Source of the DNA: Palleronia sp. THAF1
Lineage (GTDB): Bacteria > Pseudomonadota > Alphaproteobacteria > Rhodobacterales > Rhodobacteraceae
Direction: 5' to 3'
Assembly: GCF_009363795.1 (NCBI RefSeq)
Contig: NZ_CP045421.1
Location: 1 to 64,000 of the forward strand
DNA: 64,000 nucleotides
The notes beneath the pieces are model-generated. The model saw only the letters and a list, made by a program, of their open reading frames with translations. It was not told where the DNA came from and searched no databases. Within the stretch, counting starts at the first letter, position 1. Every line of letters starts with the position of its first letter. Positions 1 through 8,363 of this stretch are shown piece by piece. Both the position numbers and the translations under genes were made by a program.

Positions 1-90
1 GTCCTCGGTGAAATACGCGGCCAGATCCTGCGGATCGGTGTCCGGATCGGCCATCTTCGCCGACAGTTCCTCAAGCGTGATCTTGTCCAT
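1..90 (-). CDS. N-terminal part of an unknown protein, cut by window edge
   Basis: Only the first 30 codons are present, beginning MDKITLEELSAKMADPDTD. The ATG at 90 is preceded by a good Shine-Dalgarno sequence (AAAGGAGAGGACGG), and the start lies inside the last 20 bases of the upstream C1-peptidase-like gene, so the two are probably translationally coupled. The visible part is acidic and soluble with no signal peptide. I do not recognise a family from this fragment; by position it is the last visible member of the peroxidase/protease operon. Confidence 0.7.
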   Translation of the reverse strand, partial: MDKITLEELSAKMADPDTDPQDLAAYFTED

Positions 91-2053
91 CCGTCCTCTC
101 CTTTGAAATTTGGGCGTCTTCGGTCAGCCAGTCGGCCAGGCGCGCAAGGTGACTTGCCTGCAGCTCGCGGTGCGCAACGACGTGATGCTGCGTGTAGCGT
201 CGGCGGCGTGCCTCTGGCGGCTGCCTGGCATGGTCTGGCGTCTTGATGCTGCGCACCGTCACGCCTTCCAGCAGCCCGCCGGGCTGGGTCAGCGCCTCGG
301 CCCCAAAGCGTTTGGCGGACATGCCGATGAAATGCTCTGTCGCCTTGTCCGCGCCTTCGAACCCGTAAAGCACAAGGTCGAGGATCGAGCGCGAGTAGTG
401 GCCCACCGTCAGCTTGCGCTCGAACCCCTTGGTCGGCACCCAAAGGGTCACCCGCTCCGGCCCGCGCAGGGCCAAACGGTCGATCAGGGGGCGGAACGCG
501 CGCTCAAAGGCATCCGCCCGGATGGTTGGCGCGATCAGGGTCAGCGACGCGACTGATTCGAGGAACGCTTTTTTCTTCTCAAGGATTTCGTGCAGCCAGT
601 CCGCCCCTTGCAGCGACAGCAGGTAGCGTTCCAGCAGAATGACCCCTGCCCCATCCACCGTCAGGTGCAGCGGCGCGCCCGTTGCGGCGAACTGGTCGAA
701 CATCTCTGCCGCCGCACCGTCGGCATCGGCGGCGATTCCCTTTTGCGCCAGCATATAGCGATGCTGTCCTGCCCGGTCGGCGGCGCGCGCGATATCGCGC
801 CAGAACGCCCGACCGATCCCCGCCGTCGTGGCCTCGATCTCGTCGTTCAGATTCTCGGACAACGCGCCGACCTTCTTCACCGCAGTCTGGAACAGATGCT
901 CCAGCACGGCGCTCGTGCTTTCGACCATGTCGTTGCACCAGAACAGAGTGTACGGATAGACGCCCGCCGCCTGCAGCGCAGGCCTTCGGTCGATCTCTGC
1001 ATGAAAGGCCGCGTCGATCCCCAACAGCGAACCGGGCAGAGAGACATGGACGGGCCGATGCGGTTTTGCGGCGATCTTTCCGGCGGTCAGGCCGACGGAC
1101 TTGCGCGTCGAGGCATAGCTGCCCACCGTCACGTGATCCCCGTCATCGAGATGCGCGAAATGCCCCAAAAGCTGGTGGCGCGGCGCCGATCCGGCCTTGA
1201 TCGGCCCGTCATCGAAAAAGATGCCGCGCCGCGAATGGGAGTAGGTGAAGGCGTCGGGCGCTGGCACCCCGAGCCGCAGCACCCACGCATCGAGCACATG
1301 GCTCGACCAGTCCTCGTACGTCCAAAGCGCCACGCCCTTCAGACGATGGCCGTCGACCTCCACCCCGCCCCACTCCGCGCCATGGGAGTTCAGAACCAGG
1401 AACCCACGATCCGTGTAACCGATCACGACGAACGCGTGGTTCTCGCCCGGCTCTGCCCGCAGCGTGATCACGCCCTCTTCGGGGTCGCGCCACCCGGCAT
1501 GGGTCGAGGCCGCGACCAAGATACTGTCAGCCTCTGCCAATGCCGCATGATAGTCGTTCAGGTAGGACCGGACGCGATAATAGGCCCCCAGCGTGGTGCG
1601 CGTCGCGGCAACCGCACGCTCGACCGTCAGATCGGTGTCCCGCGGATCGTCGGGCCACAGGGCATCGCCGCAGACGCCGTTGTGGTAGAATCCCTTGATG
1701 ACCGATCGCAAAGAGGTGACGCCCCTTGCGGTGCGCGCGGCCGTGCCCTGCTCCTGCTGCACACCCATTTGATACAGCATCCGCGCCGACACGGGCGGAG
1801 GACGCGCGGCCCCGTCGGCCAGGGCACCGATCCGGTGCATATCGATCAGGTTCGCCAGCGCGTGTCCCGCGCAGGTGCCCGCCGCGCCTTGATGGCGCAG
1901 CTCATAGGGCAGCCCGCCCACCCGCACGAGCCGGTCGATCAGCGCGGTCTGGCTGCTCTGCGCCAAGGGCCGCAAGGACGGCTCGTACACCCGGTCCCGA
2001 AGGTCGGTCGGGTCGGCACGAAAGCCGGTGTCGGGGTTCGGCAGATGCGGCAA
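71..2053 (-). CDS. papain-like (C1) cysteine peptidase with alpha/beta-hydrolase-like C-terminal region
   Basis: 660 residues. The N-terminal third (about 25-265) has the papain layout: QGAAGTCAGHALANLID carries the nucleophile Cys with the usual upstream Gln, ENHAFVVIGY the catalytic His, and LNSHGAEWGG the Asn. There is no signal peptide or propeptide. The rest (about 290-640) is not peptidase; the order of a YPYTLFWCNDMVEST segment, a TVDGAGVILLERYLL segment, a SLTLIAPT strand and a GHYSRSILDLVLYGFEG segment resembles an alpha/beta-hydrolase-like fold in which the HSAG nucleophile serine position reads DGAG, so that domain is probably not a hydrolase. The domain assignment is inference by eye. 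The start is a TTG with AGGAG 8 bases upstream; no ATG fits as well. It lies 59 bp downstream of the peroxidase gene and overlaps the next gene by 20 bp. Substrate unknown; processing of operon partners is one possibility. Confidence 0.75.
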   Translation of the reverse strand: MPHLPNPDTGFRADPTDLRDRVYEPSLRPLAQSSQTALIDRLVRVGGLPYELRHQGAAGTCAGHALANLIDMHRIGALADGAARPPPVSARMLYQMGVQQEQGTAARTARGVTSLRSVIKGFYHNGVCGDALWPDDPRDTDLTVERAVAATRTTLGAYYRVRSYLNDYHAALAEADSILVAASTHAGWRDPEEGVITLRAEPGENHAFVVIGYTDRGFLVLNSHGAEWGGVEVDGHRLKGVALWTYEDWSSHVLDAWVLRLGVPAPDAFTYSHSRRGIFFDDGPIKAGSAPRHQLLGHFAHLDDGDHVTVGSYASTRKSVGLTAGKIAAKPHRPVHVSLPGSLLGIDAAFHAEIDRRPALQAAGVYPYTLFWCNDMVESTSAVLEHLFQTAVKKVGALSENLNDEIEATTAGIGRAFWRDIARAADRAGQHRYMLAQKGIAADADGAAAEMFDQFAATGAPLHLTVDGAGVILLERYLLSLQGADWLHEILEKKKAFLESVASLTLIAPTIRADAFERAFRPLIDRLALRGPERVTLWVPTKGFERKLTVGHYSRSILDLVLYGFEGADKATEHFIGMSAKRFGAEALTQPGGLLEGVTVRSIKTPDHARQPPEARRRRYTQHHVVAHRELQASHLARLADWLTEDAQISKERTDGQDHA

Positions 2054-2072
2054 CGGACTGACTCCTGCTGGT

Positions 2073-2088
2073 GGGGCGGCACCGCCCC
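2073..2088. other. GC-rich inverted repeat in the peroxidase/C1-peptidase gap
   Basis: GGGGCGG-CA-CCGCCCC lies between the peroxidase stop (2113) and the Shine-Dalgarno of the TTG-started C1 gene. It could form a tight hairpin in the mRNA and stabilise or attenuate the junction. It has no T-tract, so it is not a clear terminator. Confidence 0.4.
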
Positions 2089-2112
2089 CGAAGGGACGGC
2101 ACCCGTGCTTGG

Positions 2113-3930
2113 TCAGGCGTGCAGCCCGCAGGCGCGCATCATCTTTTCAAGCGTGTCGATGGGTTCACCGTTCGGCTGAACCGCATCGGCCGGGGTCCAG
2201 CTGTTGAAGCTGCCTTGGTTCAGATAGCTGCGCGGGTCCGTCACCAGCAGACCGACCAGCGTTTCGGCCACCAGCCGACTGCCCAAGCTGCCCAGATGCG
2301 CGCCGTCCGCTTCGACTTCGGCCTCTTTCAGCACGTAGTACCAAAGTGGCGTCGCCGTTTCGAACCCGCCGCCGGTTACGGCGGCCTGCATCGCTTCACT
2401 GCCAGAGGCAATCTGCTCTGCCGACAGTTCGGGCACCGAAATACCCTTGTCGTACAGGCACTTCACCATCGCCTGCCCCGTCGGAACATTGAACACGTAG
2501 CCCCGCCGCATGTTACGCTCGGCCAGACGCGACATCATCTCGTTCGGGTCGTTGTTCTCCAGACTGTTCATCGGCAACGCGATCCGCGTGTCGATCTTGC
2601 GCGCAACACGGTTGGGCATCGGAGAGGTGCCGATCATCCTGTCCCATTCCGCAGGCCAGTTGCTGGGCAGGGTGGGCAGACCGCGCATCCCCCCGCCGCC
2701 GGTGAACTGGAACATCTCGCGGAACGTCGCCCGTCCGTCACCGCTGCCATCGGCGGCACGGCCGAAGTTGCGGTTCCAGTCGTAGTCGCCCCGCACCATC
2801 GAGTGCCCGTAGCGGTAGGCCGCGACAGAGAATTCCAGCGGCATCGGCAGCACGCCTTCCGGCAAGCTGTCCTTGTGGGCATCGTGGAATGCCGAATAAA
2901 GCGGCGCGCGATCCGCCACGACCTGATCCACCACGGCAGGATCGCAGATCGTCTTCAGGAAGACGTTCACCACAAGCCATTGGTAGATCAGCGTGACGTT
3001 CTGGCGTGCTTCGGCAAAGATTTCGTCGGCGTCGGTCTTGCCTTCGTCCCGCAGGGTGTCGGCGATGGCGTTGTGAAGCCGCAGGATGCTCAGGTGGAAC
3101 TGCGCCACGATCAGGTTCTCGTCGTTGCGCCCGTCGCCGATCAGCGCGGTCCGCCGCACCTCCTCGTCCGAGCGCGCGCCATCCGGATTGAACAGCTCGT
3201 TCACCTCGTCCATCGTCAAATGGCCGCTGTCGATGGCGGCGCCCAAACGGGGCAGGTCCGCACCGTCATCCGCGGGCAGCGGAGGACGCTCGAAGCCAGG
3301 AATGTTGCTGATCAAGCCCAACCGCATCTTGGCCGGATCGTCGGGATCGCGCAGTGCGATCTCCAGCTTTTCCGCTGCCGGGCTTTGCCCCGGACCGTCA
3401 CCGTAGACGCTGTCCAGCTCCAACCGGCCCTTGCGCAGGTTCAGCTTGACGGTTTCTGCCGCGTCGCGCGATTGCGGCGCGATGTCGGGGCGGTCGATGT
3501 TGAACGCGCCCTCGGGCGTGCCGGGCGCATCCTCACGGTCCGTATTGGCCGTGATATCATGGTCGATGAACTGTCCCATGTAGGTGAAGACCGGCGGCAT
3601 CGTGGACTCGCCCGCCGCGTCTTTCTGGTCCAACGACGCCTCTGCCATGGCATCGGCCAAGGCCTTGATCTTGTCGCCCACGCCGTCGATCGCGGGCACG
3701 TCCGCCGCATCCTTGCAGTAAAAGCGGAACGCCTGGCGCGGCTCCAGCCCCAGAGCGGGGTCGGGATCGGGATCGGGGACCGGGTATTTCTCGGTCTTCC
3801 ACTCGCGGGATTTTTGAATGCTGGCCACGTCACGCAGATCGACATGGTCCGAAGCAGATTTGGAACGGCTGGCGCCACGCGCTGCCGGTGTGGCCGAAAT
3901 GGTTTGGCCATGTCCTAATTTGTAAAGCAT
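2113..3930 (-). CDS. animal-type haem peroxidase
   Basis: 605 residues from the ATG at 3930 (GGAG 10 bases upstream); the open frame runs 22 codons further to 3996, but that extension looks non-coding. The distal-side signature FTYMGQFIDHDIT (distal His about residue 124 with the Asp-coordinated calcium site) and the proximal-side AAYRYGHSMVRGDYDWN are both present, so the haem site looks complete. This is the peroxidase-cyclooxygenase superfamily (Pfam An_peroxidase), which oxidises halides or organic donors with H2O2. There is no signal peptide, transmembrane segment or RTX repeat, unlike many secreted bacterial members. A short acidic DPDPDPDP stretch precedes the domain. It sits between the S8 and C1 peptidase-like genes on the same strand. 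Physiological donor unknown. Confidence 0.88.
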   Translation of the reverse strand: MLYKLGHGQTISATPAARGASRSKSASDHVDLRDVASIQKSREWKTEKYPVPDPDPDPALGLEPRQAFRFYCKDAADVPAIDGVGDKIKALADAMAEASLDQKDAAGESTMPPVFTYMGQFIDHDITANTDREDAPGTPEGAFNIDRPDIAPQSRDAAETVKLNLRKGRLELDSVYGDGPGQSPAAEKLEIALRDPDDPAKMRLGLISNIPGFERPPLPADDGADLPRLGAAIDSGHLTMDEVNELFNPDGARSDEEVRRTALIGDGRNDENLIVAQFHLSILRLHNAIADTLRDEGKTDADEIFAEARQNVTLIYQWLVVNVFLKTICDPAVVDQVVADRAPLYSAFHDAHKDSLPEGVLPMPLEFSVAAYRYGHSMVRGDYDWNRNFGRAADGSGDGRATFREMFQFTGGGGMRGLPTLPSNWPAEWDRMIGTSPMPNRVARKIDTRIALPMNSLENNDPNEMMSRLAERNMRRGYVFNVPTGQAMVKCLYDKGISVPELSAEQIASGSEAMQAAVTGGGFETATPLWYYVLKEAEVEADGAHLGSLGSRLVAETLVGLLVTDPRSYLNQGSFNSWTPADAVQPNGEPIDTLEKMMRACGLHA

Positions 3931-4032
3931 TGGTCTCTGGCTCCGACTTGGCCGATGCCAAGATCGCGAAAGCGGATCTACCCTGAAACTGGGCACCTCG
4001 CGGAACTTGGTCGTTCGGCGAAATTAAGAAAT

Positions 4033-4050
4033 ACCGCGATATGGCGCGGT
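4033..4050 (-). terminator. possible weak terminator between S8 and peroxidase genes
   Basis: ACCGCG-atatgg-CGCGGT forms a 6-bp stem followed, on the minus strand, by TATTTCTT. It lies in the 280-bp gap 3931-4210. If active it would separate transcription of regulator-PAP2-S8 from peroxidase-C1; the stem is short and the T-run interrupted, so this is weak. Apart from it and the peroxidase ribosome-binding site I see nothing else in the gap. Confidence 0.3.
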
Positions 4051-4210
4051 CCTTTATCTCTCGTCGCGGGCCTCTTCTTCCTCCTCCTTTCCGGCGTCGC
4101 GACCTGAAATCAATCCGGGAAAGCCCCGGCCTTCGACGTCTGCCTGAACACGGGCTGACGACTGATACCGTGTAGGACACCCCGTGACCCACCGGCCGGA
4201 CCGGACACCA

Positions 4211-5704
4211 TCACTGGATGGCTCCGGTTCGCAACGTCGACCAGTGGATCGCCGGTTGTGCCGCCGCGTGGTCAGCCTTGCGCCCCGCCGTCAGCGCGGC
4301 CTTGACAGCCACACCGGTTCCGGCGCCACGCGGCGCGATGCATCCTGCCGACATACCCAGAGACACAAGCCCCGCCGTCAGCGCCACCGCACCCGACGTG
4401 CCCGAGAACCGGCAATAGGCCGACCGATAGTCAAGGATTGCGCCGTCCACACCGAACACCTGCGCGTTGGGGCTGGAATTGTAGCCCGCCCGCCCCGGCA
4501 CGTCTGTAGACACAAGGTCCTGCGGTGCGTGAAGACGCGCGTTGGCGTCAGTGCCCGCCGCATCTCCGAAATTGCCCAGCCCGTCCAGATAGGCGCGGCC
4601 GTGATCGTTGGGATTGAACCCTGCCGCCTGCACGTCCAATCGTTGCAGATCATGGTCCAGCCTCTCACCGTCGCCGCTTGGCGCGTATACGGTGATCGCC
4701 TCTGACACCGGGGAATAGCTGGCCGCGTGCCCGGCTGCGGTCCGCGCGCCGACGGCGATGATCCCGTTGTCATCGGCGGCAAGATTTCCCGGAAACAGCA
4801 CCGTGTCCTGTGCGCCATTCCCGGCGGCACAGATGACCGGAACCCGCTGGGACACCGCCACTGTCAGCGCGCCTAGCAAGTCCCATTGCGCCAGTTCCTC
4901 TTCGCTCAGCCCGACCCCCAACGCACGCCCCAGCGCGTCCACAGTGGTCGCGGCGTCCGGTGCCAAGCTGCGCGGCGACGGGAAGTCACGCGCCAGAACG
5001 ATGACATCCGCCTTGATCAGAACCGCGTAGAGCATCGCCAGGATCAGCTGCTCTGGCTCCGGGTCGAAATGTGTCGAGATCGGTACGATCTCGCAGAAGG
5101 GATCCACCCCGGCAAAGGCGAAGGACACCGAACCCGCGCCGGTGACTTCCTTCATGTCGCCCGTGACCGGATCGAAGATGCGCGTGCCGGAAACAGCCAC
5201 CTGATCCGCCGCAACGGGCCGCGCCCCGATCAGACCAGCCATCGCGGTGCCATGCGCCGAAAAGCTGGGGGCCGTGGCAGGCTGCACGATAGGGTCTACG
5301 TCGCTTCGCAAATGCGCTACCAACAGGTCCCATTGGGACCGCGCGCCATTCGGCAGATCATCGGGAAAAGGGATCATCTCGCTTCCAAGCGCCGACGCCA
5401 GTCCAGCCCTGTCGGCAGGAACCGCAAAACGCGCCGAGAAGAAATCCAGCGCCCGACCCGTGTCGATCGCGCCCCTCAGGTTCGGATGCTCCGCCGCGAC
5501 GGACGTGTCGATCAGCGCCACTCGCGTCCGACGCGATCCTGCACGCTCTGCCGCCCGGTCCCATCCATCCGAGCGAAAGCTCGACAGATCCGTGACAACC
5601 CCCATCTCCGCCAGCGGCCACAGGGCGTGGAACGCCGGGTAGACCCCCCTGCCCCGCTGCGCGTCACTGTCCAGCCGGATCCGGTCCTGCATCGTCTCGC
5701 TCAT
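4211..5704 (-). CDS. subtilisin-like (S8) serine protease domain protein
   Basis: 497 residues from the ATG at 5704, chosen because GGGAGGAATGGGT lies directly upstream and because it forms an ATGA overlap with the stop of the PAP2 gene. The S8 triad is present in order: VALIDTSVA (Asp about 66), FSAHGTAMAGLIG (His about 151) and RFSGTSGAVALTAG (Ser about 437), with the oxyanion Asn in ICAAGNGAQD (about 296). There is no signal peptide and little room for an inhibitor propeptide, so it is either cytoplasmic or exported by an unseen route. A long insert (about 85-145) separates Asp and His. It is translationally coupled to the PAP2 gene. A regulatory or maturation protease for the operon is plausible but unproven. 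Confidence 0.85.
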   Translation of the reverse strand: MSETMQDRIRLDSDAQRGRGVYPAFHALWPLAEMGVVTDLSSFRSDGWDRAAERAGSRRTRVALIDTSVAAEHPNLRGAIDTGRALDFFSARFAVPADRAGLASALGSEMIPFPDDLPNGARSQWDLLVAHLRSDVDPIVQPATAPSFSAHGTAMAGLIGARPVAADQVAVSGTRIFDPVTGDMKEVTGAGSVSFAFAGVDPFCEIVPISTHFDPEPEQLILAMLYAVLIKADVIVLARDFPSPRSLAPDAATTVDALGRALGVGLSEEELAQWDLLGALTVAVSQRVPVICAAGNGAQDTVLFPGNLAADDNGIIAVGARTAAGHAASYSPVSEAITVYAPSGDGERLDHDLQRLDVQAAGFNPNDHGRAYLDGLGNFGDAAGTDANARLHAPQDLVSTDVPGRAGYNSSPNAQVFGVDGAILDYRSAYCRFSGTSGAVALTAGLVSLGMSAGCIAPRGAGTGVAVKAALTAGRKADHAAAQPAIHWSTLRTGAIQ

Positions 5705-6651
5705 ACCCATTCCTCCCGCGCGGCCAGCATCTGATCTTCCAGCACGACTTCGAAGATCGGCGTCATCATCTGCGCCAGCGCCCGTCCCGCCGCCGTGTCC
5801 TGCGCATAGTGCAGACCGGCCCATTCACGGTTTTCCGCGATGCGGCGCGCGCTTAGAAACAGTTCGGCGATGCCCGGATGTTCGGGCGCGACACGCGCGA
5901 AGACGAAAGCGATGGCGTAGGACAGGAACGCGTGGTTCGACGGATAAGACGGGTGAACAGGCACCGGCACGAAGGTCCGCAGGCGCGGATTGACAGTGCT
6001 GGGCCGGGGCGCATCGAAGCGATCCTTGTAGCGCAGGCCGATTTCCTCGCACAGCCGCGCCAAGATCAGAAACAGCGCCACGGTCTGCGGCGCACCCCCC
6101 GTATCCGTCACGCCCAGGGGCCGCAGATAGCCCGACAATTCAAGCTCCTGCTCCCTTACGATCTCTTGCCGACGCCCCGCTTCGGCATCCGTCAAAAGCG
6201 CCGCTTGCTTGCGCAACAACTCGCGCGTCTGGTCATACAATCCCGCAGGCGACGCGGGCAGCGGGATGGGCAGGTCATGCCACCAGTCCCGCAGGCGATG
6301 CAGTCTGTCGATCTCGTTCCACGGCAGCAGGATATCGGGTGTCTCGCCGGTCACCGGCGCGCCCGTGTCCACGGCATTGCGGTTCCTGTTCCGGTTTCGA
6401 TTGCGGTTCCTGTTGCGATTCCGATTTCGGTTTCGGTTCCTGTTCCTGTTCCGGTTCAGCAAGGACGACGCGCCGCCCGAGCCCGCCGGAACCGACACGA
6501 AAGTCGTCGCATCGAACATCCCACCGCCCGCGGTCGGCAAATCCCCAAGGCGCGACGCCTCGACTGCCTCGAAACTGTCACCCACCGCCAAGAGCGCTGT
6601 CTTCACCAGAACGGCGCTGAATGGGTTCGTAGGTCTGTCATCGTCGTACAT
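5701..6651 (-). CDS. PAP2-superfamily / vanadium-haloperoxidase-fold protein with Asn-Arg repeat
   Basis: 316 residues. The acid-phosphatase/haloperoxidase motifs are in the C-terminal half: KDRFDAPRP (209-217), HPSYPSNHA (about 233-241) and NREWAGLHYAQD (Arg275, His281, Asp285), matching the K-x6-RP, PSGH and SR-x5-H-x3-D signatures. There are no strong transmembrane helices, unlike lipid-phosphate PAP2 enzymes, so it is closer in style to soluble bacterial vanadium-dependent haloperoxidase relatives. Residues 66-92 are a perfect Asn-Arg dipeptide repeat. The ATG at 6651 shares one base with the stop of the regulator gene (TGATG), and its own stop overlaps the S8 start (ATGA), so the three are coupled. 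Whether it is a phosphatase or a haloperoxidase cannot be told from sequence alone. Confidence 0.8.
   Translation of the reverse strand: MYDDDRPTNPFSAVLVKTALLAVGDSFEAVEASRLGDLPTAGGGMFDATTFVSVPAGSGGASSLLNRNRNRNRNRNRNRNRNRNRNRNRNRNAVDTGAPVTGETPDILLPWNEIDRLHRLRDWWHDLPIPLPASPAGLYDQTRELLRKQAALLTDAEAGRRQEIVREQELELSGYLRPLGVTDTGGAPQTVALFLILARLCEEIGLRYKDRFDAPRPSTVNPRLRTFVPVPVHPSYPSNHAFLSYAIAFVFARVAPEHPGIAELFLSARRIAENREWAGLHYAQDTAAGRALAQMMTPIFEVVLEDQMLAAREEWV
6376..6456 (-). repeat. hexanucleotide-like repeat encoding N(RN)13
   Basis: Twenty-seven codons alternate Asn and Arg without interruption. Asn uses both AAC and AAT, and Arg uses CGC, AGG, CGG and CGA, so the DNA repeat is degenerate while the protein repeat is exact. 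It forms a highly basic linker between the unassigned N-terminus and the PAP2 domain. Confidence 0.95.
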
Positions 6652-8363
6652 CAGTCTGCCCCAGCTTTCGTCAGTCCCTCGATCAGTATTCTTTTCGCCC
6701 GTGCGTCTCTCACGGCCATTCTATCGTCGCGCACCCAATCCACCGAAAACGCCGGGTCCATGCTGCGCAGCCGCTGCACGCAGTCCTTCGCGCCGTCGAT
6801 ATCACCGCGATGGGCCAGTGCGATCGACATGTATCGCAATGCTGCGCCGAAGTTCGGACGCAGCGACAGAACCCGTGCGCCCAGATCGGTCGCCGTCGGG
6901 AAATCGCCCTGAAGCGTCGCGATCATGCTGCGCGTGGTCTGCATGGTGAAGGAAATCGGGCTGAACGCGCCAAGCCGCAGCGCATTGCGCGAGGCCACCT
7001 GCGCCAGATCGTATTTGCCGCCGTAGGTGCAATGCAGCGCCAGATGGTCCCAGCAGAAGGCCGACTGCGGCGCCATCCGCAGCGCATGTTGCAGCATATC
7101 GCCCGCACCCTCGTGATCGTGCAGCACGTACCCGGCCGCATGACCAACCATCCCCAGCGCCAGCCCTCCGCTCGCCGGATCGCTGCGCACTTGGGCCACA
7201 AGGCGACGGGTGTCTTCTTCCAGCGTGCCCCTGCCCGTCTGCCAGTGCTCGCCCACGCGAAAGGTGTTCTGATACGCCAGCAAAGCCGGATAGATCGGTG
7301 CGTTGGTCACTTGCCAGGCCCGCTCCAACTCTGCCTCAAGGTCATCCAGCGCCTGATGGTCCAGCTGGAACATGGATGTCAGTGCATGAAACGGAGTGAT
7401 CGGCGCGTCAGGATTTCCTTCTGCGCCCGACGCCAGCGTCCCTGACGTCCGTTCGACCACCTCTCCCAGAAGCCCAAGCACCTCGCTATGCTCCAGACAG
7501 GCCCGATCGGTGCGGATCGGGCCCCGCTCGGCGAACCACAGCAATTCCGTGTTCGAGCGATCCATCACCAGAACGCGCAGCGATACGCTGTCGCCCAACT
7601 CATACAGTCGGAATCGCAGGTACAGGCTGGGACTGTTCTGGACATCCAGCTCGCAAGTGTCTGCATCGCGGTCTCGGTAGTCGAACACCCGAGCCCCGAC
7701 ATAATCACGCAAACCGTCGGAAATGCAGTCAACCAACGCCTCGGCCAGGTACAGCGCGTTGATCGAACGCGAATGAATAACCGGCTGCAGCAACCCAATC
7801 ACTGGGCGAAGATCTTCAGCCGGGGGCGTGGAGTAGTCCGTCAACAAGCGCGCCCGAGGCGGTTCAGCCGCGGCCTCGATGATCCTGTCGCGCCACTGCA
7901 TGCGCTGATCGCGCAGCCATTCTTCGAACCCCTCTGCTGGAAGGTCGATACCTTCCAACACGTCGGGCGGATCGCTGACGATCTCTGTAGGTAAAGCCGA
8001 AACTCCGTCCCGCAGGAATCTCAGCAGATCGACGGAAACGACATCGGGATCAAGACGCACGAGTGACGGGGTGATCTCAATCAAGGCGGGATCGCACTCC
8101 GCCAGTTCTCGGCGCAGTCCATGCAGGGCCGTTCTCAAGCTCTGCGCCGCGCGTTGCGTGTCCTTGTCCCCCCAGAACAGATCTTGCAGTCGGGCTCTGG
8201 ACACGCCGCCGCGCCCCGCAAGGGCGATTACAGCAAGCATCGCTTGCCGGTGGGTGCTTCGCGATGTGTAGTCCGCGCCGTCGGCGCCGGTAAGCCGCAT
8301 CGGCCCCAGCAAGTCCAATGTAGCCGCGCGATCCGCGCAGGCTTTGCGTCGGGCGTCGAACAC
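6651..8363 (-). CDS. SARP/BTAD-type transcriptional regulator with TPR region
   Basis: About 570 residues from a GTG at 8363, which has AAAGGA 9 bases upstream; the open frame continues to 8633 but the distal part is AT-rich and looks non-coding. Residues about 15-115 form a winged-helix DNA-binding unit of the SARP/CadC type (LDLLGPMRLT, then RQAMLAVIALAGRGGVSRARL, LFWGD, AAQSLRTALHGLRREL). A middle segment (RPVIGLLQPV, EALVDCISDGLRDYV) resembles the TolB/FlgO-like domain often found behind such regulators. The C-terminal half contains helical repeats consistent with TPRs. It is the promoter-proximal gene of the operon and coupled to the PAP2 gene, so it most likely activates that operon. 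The signal sensed is unknown. Start uncertain. Confidence 0.8.
   Translation of the reverse strand: MFDARRKACADRAATLDLLGPMRLTGADGADYTSRSTHRQAMLAVIALAGRGGVSRARLQDLFWGDKDTQRAAQSLRTALHGLRRELAECDPALIEITPSLVRLDPDVVSVDLLRFLRDGVSALPTEIVSDPPDVLEGIDLPAEGFEEWLRDQRMQWRDRIIEAAAEPPRARLLTDYSTPPAEDLRPVIGLLQPVIHSRSINALYLAEALVDCISDGLRDYVGARVFDYRDRDADTCELDVQNSPSLYLRFRLYELGDSVSLRVLVMDRSNTELLWFAERGPIRTDRACLEHSEVLGLLGEVVERTSGTLASGAEGNPDAPITPFHALTSMFQLDHQALDDLEAELERAWQVTNAPIYPALLAYQNTFRVGEHWQTGRGTLEEDTRRLVAQVRSDPASGGLALGMVGHAAGYVLHDHEGAGDMLQHALRMAPQSAFCWDHLALHCTYGGKYDLAQVASRNALRLGAFSPISFTMQTTRSMIATLQGDFPTATDLGARVLSLRPNFGAALRYMSIALAHRGDIDGAKDCVQRLRSMDPAFSVDWVRDDRMAVRDARAKRILIEGLTKAGAD

Follow-up and report, generated by a model that had tools for sequence, protein, structure and literature searches.

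At the left end of the 64,000-base stretch analyzed here (the window; contig NZ_CP045421.1 of Palleronia sp. THAF1, bases 1–64000) lies part of a run of genes that places a SARP regulator beside a phosphatase, proteases and a haem peroxidase. Five genes are encoded on the minus strand within the window, spanning 71–8363, in agreement with an earlier note on this sequence, which placed them on one strand, and the run leaves the window leftwards at base 1. The source contig comprises 90,721 bases in a two-contig genome. Joining its ends yields an uninterrupted 606-codon frame for gene 6 across the junction, which supports a circular plasmid, and the replication/partition stretch resembles Rhodobacterales plasmid records, the best match being annotated DnaA-like-I. 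The joined sequence carries nine minus-strand genes in the run, so the window cuts the cluster: SARP regulator, PAP2 phosphatase, S8 subtilase, haem peroxidase, papain-like protein, SGNH hydrolase fused to a caspase, endolysin-type wall hydrolase, multi-transmembrane protein and periplasmic binding protein. Gene pairs 1/2, 2/3, 5/6 and 6/7 overlap; the starts and stops of the subtilase and peroxidase genes (280 bp apart) and of the peroxidase gene and gene 5 (59 bp) do not, and the coupling that the earlier note described therefore holds in part. The cluster consists of two modules that are joined here and also occur separately. Module A comprises the SARP, repeat-bearing PAP2 and S8 genes; module B comprises the peroxidase, papain-like, SGNH-caspase and wall hydrolase genes; the 280-bp gap at 3931–4210 is where they meet.

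Gene 1 (6651–8363, minus strand; start uncertain, frame open to 8633) encodes a SARP/AfsR-type regulator with C-terminal TPR. Pfam returned TPR alone, with no NTPase match, and the NCBIfam SARP model scored 2e-4, far below its cut-off. Assignment as a SARP is supported by a profile of 12 homologues, which matches AfsR (8hvr, E 1e-7), EmbR and TPR proteins; its AfsR/EmbR-like DNA-binding region matches 8hvr, 8jke, 8k60 and 2fez. Gene 2 (5701–6651, minus strand; 316 residues) matches PAP2 in Pfam (4e-7), and K209, R216, P217, S238, H240, R275, H281 and D285, which we take to be the PAP2 active-site residues, are invariant in 12 homologues. In its predicted structure the catalytic part mostly reaches a predicted local distance difference test score (pLDDT) of 80–97, while an N-terminal repeat stays below 50. 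The nearest solved structure is the Pseudomonas aeruginosa acid phosphatase 7f17 (Foldseek 1e-7; profile 4.6e-26), whereas the best haloperoxidase matches reach a profile value of 1e-9 and about 1e-2 in Foldseek. The PAP2 half of the earlier PAP2/vanadium-haloperoxidase description is thus retained and the haloperoxidase half rejected: gene 2 ranks nearer to class A acid phosphatases, and a second oxidant-making enzyme is not supported. Gene 3 (4211–5704, minus strand; 497 residues, frame open to 5824) is an S8 subtilase (Pfam Peptidase_S8, 2e-14) with three internal hydrophobic stretches by simple hydropathy. Read by eye, the S8 triad and the PAP2 motif look complete.

In module B, gene 4 (2113–3930, minus strand; 605 residues from an ATG common to homologues) is a haem peroxidase (An_peroxidase, 1e-17), its profile being closest to lacto- and myeloperoxidase. 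For the peroxidase-cyclooxygenase superfamily, the available part of PMC4420034 gives the motif as a distal His, Arg-x-x-Glu and a proximal His; gene 4 carries this motif, with His124, Arg268, Glu271 and His376 invariant in 12 homologues. Gene 5 (71–2053, minus strand; 660 residues, TTG start assumed) had no Pfam match, and a profile of its family finds the cysteine protease 3ois (E 4e-24); the papain-domain residues Gln55, Cys61, His206 and Asn222 do not vary among nine homologues. It also carries a second, degenerate hydrolase-like domain: at the position where three related loci (L024–L026; L numbers denote loci, G numbers genomes) read GHSAG, the window protein (VDGAG), L011, L012 and L023 read DGAG or EGAG. 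Gene 6, the further coupled gene of the earlier note, does overlap gene 5, starting at window 1–90 (first 30 codons) and continuing at contig 90721–88991 on the minus strand; it is not the last, three more same-strand genes following it. Its 606 residues comprise a conserved N-terminus of ~50 residues, an SGNH hydrolase and a C14 caspase domain (Pfam 7e-15) in which the His-Cys dyad, GHGG and CHSG are conserved.

The remaining genes lie outside the window on the same strand. Gene 7 (contig 88311–89087; 258 residues) carries a domain for peptidoglycan binding, and its CHAP match stays under the Pfam cut-off; like the L036 and L053 wall hydrolases, it scores as a phage endolysin or tail lysozyme. 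Gene 8 (contig 86263–88167; 634 residues) has seven hydrophobic stretches and a poor predicted structure (pLDDT 57), and gene 9 (contig 85295–86266; 323 residues) is an SBP_bac_3 protein. No N-terminal hydrophobic stretch was found in genes 1–7 by simple hydropathy alone, a coarser measure than a signal-peptide predictor; to that extent the reported absence of signal peptides is borne out, as are the subtilase, peroxidase, papain-like and regulator assignments and the completeness of the catalytic motifs. Convergent with gene 9, two small genes at contig 84594–85291 (L003) resemble a VapB/PIN toxin-antitoxin pair by eye.

The joint arrangement recurs beyond close relatives, so in the loci surveyed the outcome that the earlier note had named as refuting its view is not seen. 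Genes 1–7 are collinear in a metagenome-assembled Loktanella (L033) and in L. atrilutea (L034) at 54–78% identity, Cereibacter johrii (L035) has genes 4–6, and parts of the operon are found in other Rhodobacterales and in Rhizobiales. At the module boundary the 280 bp of the window compare with about 900 bp in the two Loktanella loci, where a hydrophobic frame of ~231 codons, absent from the window, lies between the S8 and peroxidase genes (L033:7213–8113, L034:7185–8089; 73% DNA identity). This frame gave no convincing Pfam or PHROGs match; like the L033 frame, gene 8 is hydrophobic and matches no PHROGs family. In another locus (L164:13508–17299) a trypsin-NucA-S8 protein directly follows the peroxidase, beside SARP-PAP2-S8, providing a link to published NucA-peptidase systems, and in L165 the peroxidase is followed by a hydrolase-trypsin protein. 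The peroxidase alone proved unsuitable as an operon marker: among 33 plasmid records with a peroxidase match, six were opened, and homology search detected no further operon gene in the stretch concerned in 6/6.

Module B was surveyed by scanning genome contigs for the gene-5 family, using the best 80 of 487 relatives, a choice that favours near relatives. Gene models were built from homology-forced frames, since heuristic calls were antisense in some high-GC loci; for L035, L039, L058, L060 and L113, gene 5 was read from frame matches. Of the 80 loci, 37 have an SGNH gene of the gene-6 type on the same strand as gene 5 and no more than 3 kb from it, and just eight have a peroxidase gene so placed. 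Hydrolytic cleavage of protein, lipid/phosphate ester and cell wall is therefore the common theme, not the oxidant release that the earlier note had proposed. Gene-5 matches occur in 10/295 family genomes and in 16 of 289 class genomes (6 strong, with E below 1e-100, and 10 weak). Matches to the N-terminus plus SGNH part of gene 6 occur in 6/289 class genomes, four of them with a strong gene 5 (hypergeometric 8e-7); in three of these four, gene 5 and the SGNH gene are neighbours or have a peroxidase in between.

Fusions and exchanges occur within this module. A single 1792-residue polypeptide of Paracoccus lichenicola (L060) unites the papain-like region with SGNH, caspase and M15 peptidase parts; its gene is divergent from that of a protein containing parts akin to genes 8 and 9. 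The SGNH protein carries a trypsin in place of the caspase in L062 and L064, and an extra M15 peptidase in L043. Wall hydrolase families accompanying gene 5 likewise differ: peptidoglycan-binding plus CHAP-like (window and L025, CHAP below the Pfam cut-off), GH19 (L036) and Amidase_3 plus M15 (L053). Homologues of gene 8 lie near peroxidase and PAP2 genes in L167; in the Sinorhizobium-type loci L036–L039 they are located downstream of module B. Two further observations concern gene-5 relatives. In Roseivivax/Paracoccus loci (L027, L028, L031), proteins resembling that of gene 5 bear the annotation trypsin-like or C1 peptidase and stand beside a ~2300-residue protein without assigned function, and in L119:11292–14954 a 1220-residue KAP-family P-loop protein lies directly behind a split gene-5 homologue.

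Module A is more widespread. PAP2 matches were found at 62 places in 53/198 family genomes, and 61 of the 62 were examined (the second match of G004 was left out). A SARP match lies near 56/61 of them, within 6.5 kb in 52/57 of a wider set plus the other four; L143, L148, L179, L196 and L207 lack one at this distance, all except L179 being short stretches or contig ends. The window-type S8 gene accompanies PAP2 in 8/8 loci of the window's clade (L135–L142). A more distant S8 protein of ~685 residues does so in 33/37 further PAP2 stretches, with an S8 Pfam match in 6/6 examples. PAP2 and peroxidase matches are both present in 12/198 genomes. In six of the 12, among them the genome of the window, the two are no more than 3 kb apart; the number expected at up to 10 kb is ~0.06, taking genome size as 4 Mb. 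In L171:10758–12671 the regulator adjoining PAP2 seems nucleotide-cyclase-like at its N-terminus, instead of having the SARP region (alignment, read by eye).

The PAP2 protein contains an unusual feature, a short peptide repeated perfectly in tandem on the N-terminal side of the catalytic domain. In the window it consists of (Asn-Arg) units at residues 66–92 of gene 2 (6376–6456, minus strand). All 15 PAP2 proteins of a first set carry such a peptide, and a perfect tandem repeat of 2–5 residues is present at 58/61 places (54/57 in the wider set, at ≥10 residues and ≥3.5 units, plus four others). L143 (a fragment), L179 and L200 lack it; the bearers include genes in L135–L153 and L178–L214. Among 1,527 genes called in earlier loci, 12 have a repeat of ≥6 units and ≥10 residues and all 12 are PAP2, a count that rests on heuristic gene calls, which missed the repeat-bearing PAP2 genes of L169 and L174. 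The 61 arrays, including those of L033, L034 and L053, use 49 distinct units: NR in the window and Loktanella, and elsewhere SR, NK, NRG, GNQ, GHE, ENW, SAY, GGGI, DAR and others, none of which contains Cys or Pro. The unit is common to 3/3 pairs at 80–90% identity of the remaining protein and to 1/1 at 70–80%, falling to 1/6 at 60–70%, 7/33 at 50–60% and 7/99 at 40–50%.

Codons within the repeats are mixed. Agreement of third codon bases between adjacent units was 0.357, against 0.441 in within-array shuffles (61 arrays), and fell below expectation in 47/61 (sign test 2.7e-5, relatedness ignored). On these grounds recent DNA slippage was rejected as the sole cause of the exact peptide repeats. 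Against this rejection count the 14/61 arrays without a third-base deficit, the window's own among them (0.48 versus 0.46), and pooled codon usage, which for most residues is nearly alike in the repeats and the rest of the genes. The repeat may be a free-worded spacer or a recognition tag. A more specific idea, which we consider improbable, is a lineage-specific recognition code: the unit would be read by a partner from the same cluster, most simply the accompanying subtilase, such that only the cell's own phosphatase is processed or released. Units would then be swapped wholesale between lineages, with exact repetition selected at the peptide level and alternating codons lowering repetition in the DNA. 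If true, the code would be a new kind of bacterial peptide barcode; in any case, the repeat-bearing phosphatase poses a testable question, namely what reads a repeat word that changes between lineages.

Taken together, the gene set suggests a SARP-controlled, intracellular cell-demolition operon of two modules serving programmed death or lysis. This proposal, drawn from sequence, is tentative, and we put its probability at about 0.38. Both modules would be expressed together, with genes 8 and 9 as a possible sensor within module B; their domain type, the L060 fusion and its likeness to L026 point to that role. A signal perceived by this membrane/periplasmic pair, together with the C-terminal part of the SARP, would switch the operon on. 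The proteases would then cleave cell proteins and perhaps their partner proteins, the lipid/phosphate hydrolases and peroxidase would harm membranes, and the endolysin-type enzyme would open the wall, presumably lysing the cell. A role in death or conflict is supported by likeness to NucA-peptidase systems, themselves predicted and with core domains that are absent here. If correct, caspase, papain, subtilase, peroxidase and endolysin-type enzymes would be united in one bacterial executioner that lacks the NTPases of the systems of Kaur et al. and is compact enough to be tested in laboratory strains.

Several observations weigh against this proposal. No antitoxin or inhibitor gene was recognized, and no holin family match or holin-like gene was recognized in the operon that would let a cytosolic wall hydrolase reach the wall. 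The hydrolase domain of gene 5 is without the serine of GHSAG. A separate SGNH gene within 3 kb is lacking in 43/80 gene-5 loci (one being the L060 fusion, and some contigs being cut), and in G424 the two genes are 2.5 Mb apart. Genes 8 and 9, which follow a 143-bp gap in the host, were found in neither Loktanella locus. PADLOC returned nothing for genes 1–5 and 7–9, and for the Loktanella copy of gene 6 only a caspase model.

The same enzymes might instead be directed outwards, attacking competitors after leaving by another route or when some cells lyse. Their target range (protein, lipid, wall) is similar to that of mixed effector sets, and a gene with a Tle1-like catalytic domain of the type VI secretion system (T6SS) lies near module B in L043. 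However, genes 1–7 show no N-terminal hydrophobic stretch, no immunity gene was recognized, and the host genome (G000) has neither a T6SS VipB nor a Phage_sheath_1 match. VipB occurs in 11/35 carrier genomes versus 44/198 family genomes, the 35 being part of all carriers, with no taxonomic matching. T6SS delivery was rejected on the VipB results, and antagonism as a whole appears unlikely. Self-directed demolition fits somewhat better than secretion because the enzymes share one run, are partly fused in relatives and come without a visible export signal or the secretion markers tested. Phage-triggered use of these enzymes, in defence of the abortive-infection type, would accord with the caspase, trypsin, subtilase and NucA parts that are common in predicted conflict systems, according to the available parts of PMC7159879 and PMC8195603; yet PADLOC assigned no defence system to the operon genes and the listed flanking genes, judged by annotation only, show no defence island, making this explanation slightly less likely again.

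Two further explanations dispense with killing. A housekeeping or matrix role, in scavenging phosphate or turning over cell debris or components of polysaccharide biofilms, is about as doubtful as phage defence: the acid phosphatase-like PAP2, the frequency of SARP-PAP2-S8 and the remaining contig genes, mostly polysaccharide genes as read by eye with no family search, speak for it, while no export signal was seen and module B, with its caspase and papain-like partners, is not suggestive of nutrition. Synthesis of an oxidised natural product by the peroxidase (and by PAP2 as a haloperoxidase) under SARP control seems very improbable. SARPs do control Streptomyces antibiotic clusters, as the available part of PMC10936776 describes, but PAP2 ranks with phosphatases and no assembly-line or tailoring gene was recognized in the operon.

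For the proposed demolition operon, no named system with the same gene set, and no published description of the operon or of the PAP2 repeats, was found in full-text literature that excludes most subscription papers, which is weak evidence for the earlier note's view of an undescribed system. The nearest relative is the NucA-peptidase conflict system ('System 3', Kaur et al. 2020), a predicted, mostly alphaproteobacterial system with a proposed proteolytic cascade. As far as the available text of PMC7159879 goes, it shares with the operon several peptidase domains including S8, and papain-like and lysozyme-like wall-attacking parts. Genes 1–9, in contrast, have no NucA/Endonuclease_NS or trypsin Pfam match; the Pfam scan of these genes also gave no EAD1, the EAD1 profile not having been compared as such. 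The operon in turn has a SARP, a repeat-bearing PAP2, a peroxidase and an SGNH-caspase, and the terms peroxidase, SGNH, GDSL, PAP2 and SARP are absent from the main text of PMC7159879.

Individual components also have known counterparts from which they depart. Like the bacterial orthocaspases and metacaspases, gene 6 has a C14 domain with a His-Cys dyad, but here it is fused to an SGNH hydrolase, and neither GDSL nor SGNH appears in the available text of PMC6426788 and PMC4933709. In scoring as endolysins or tail lysozyme, gene 7 and the L036 and L053 wall hydrolases resemble the enzymes of phage lysis cassettes, whereas here proteases and lipid hydrolases surround the wall hydrolase and no holin accompanies it by family match. 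Gene 1 shares the SARP region and TPR of AfsR/EmbR-type regulators, while the Rhodobacteraceae proteins stand beside PAP2 and S8 genes and differ in the middle region, with no NTPase match in gene 1. The PAP2 domain of gene 2 is alike in fold and sequence to class A acid phosphatases (P. aeruginosa 7f17; PhoN/PhoC), but differs from them in having no visible N-terminal signal, in its N-terminal micro-repeat and in its linkage to a SARP and an S8 subtilase.

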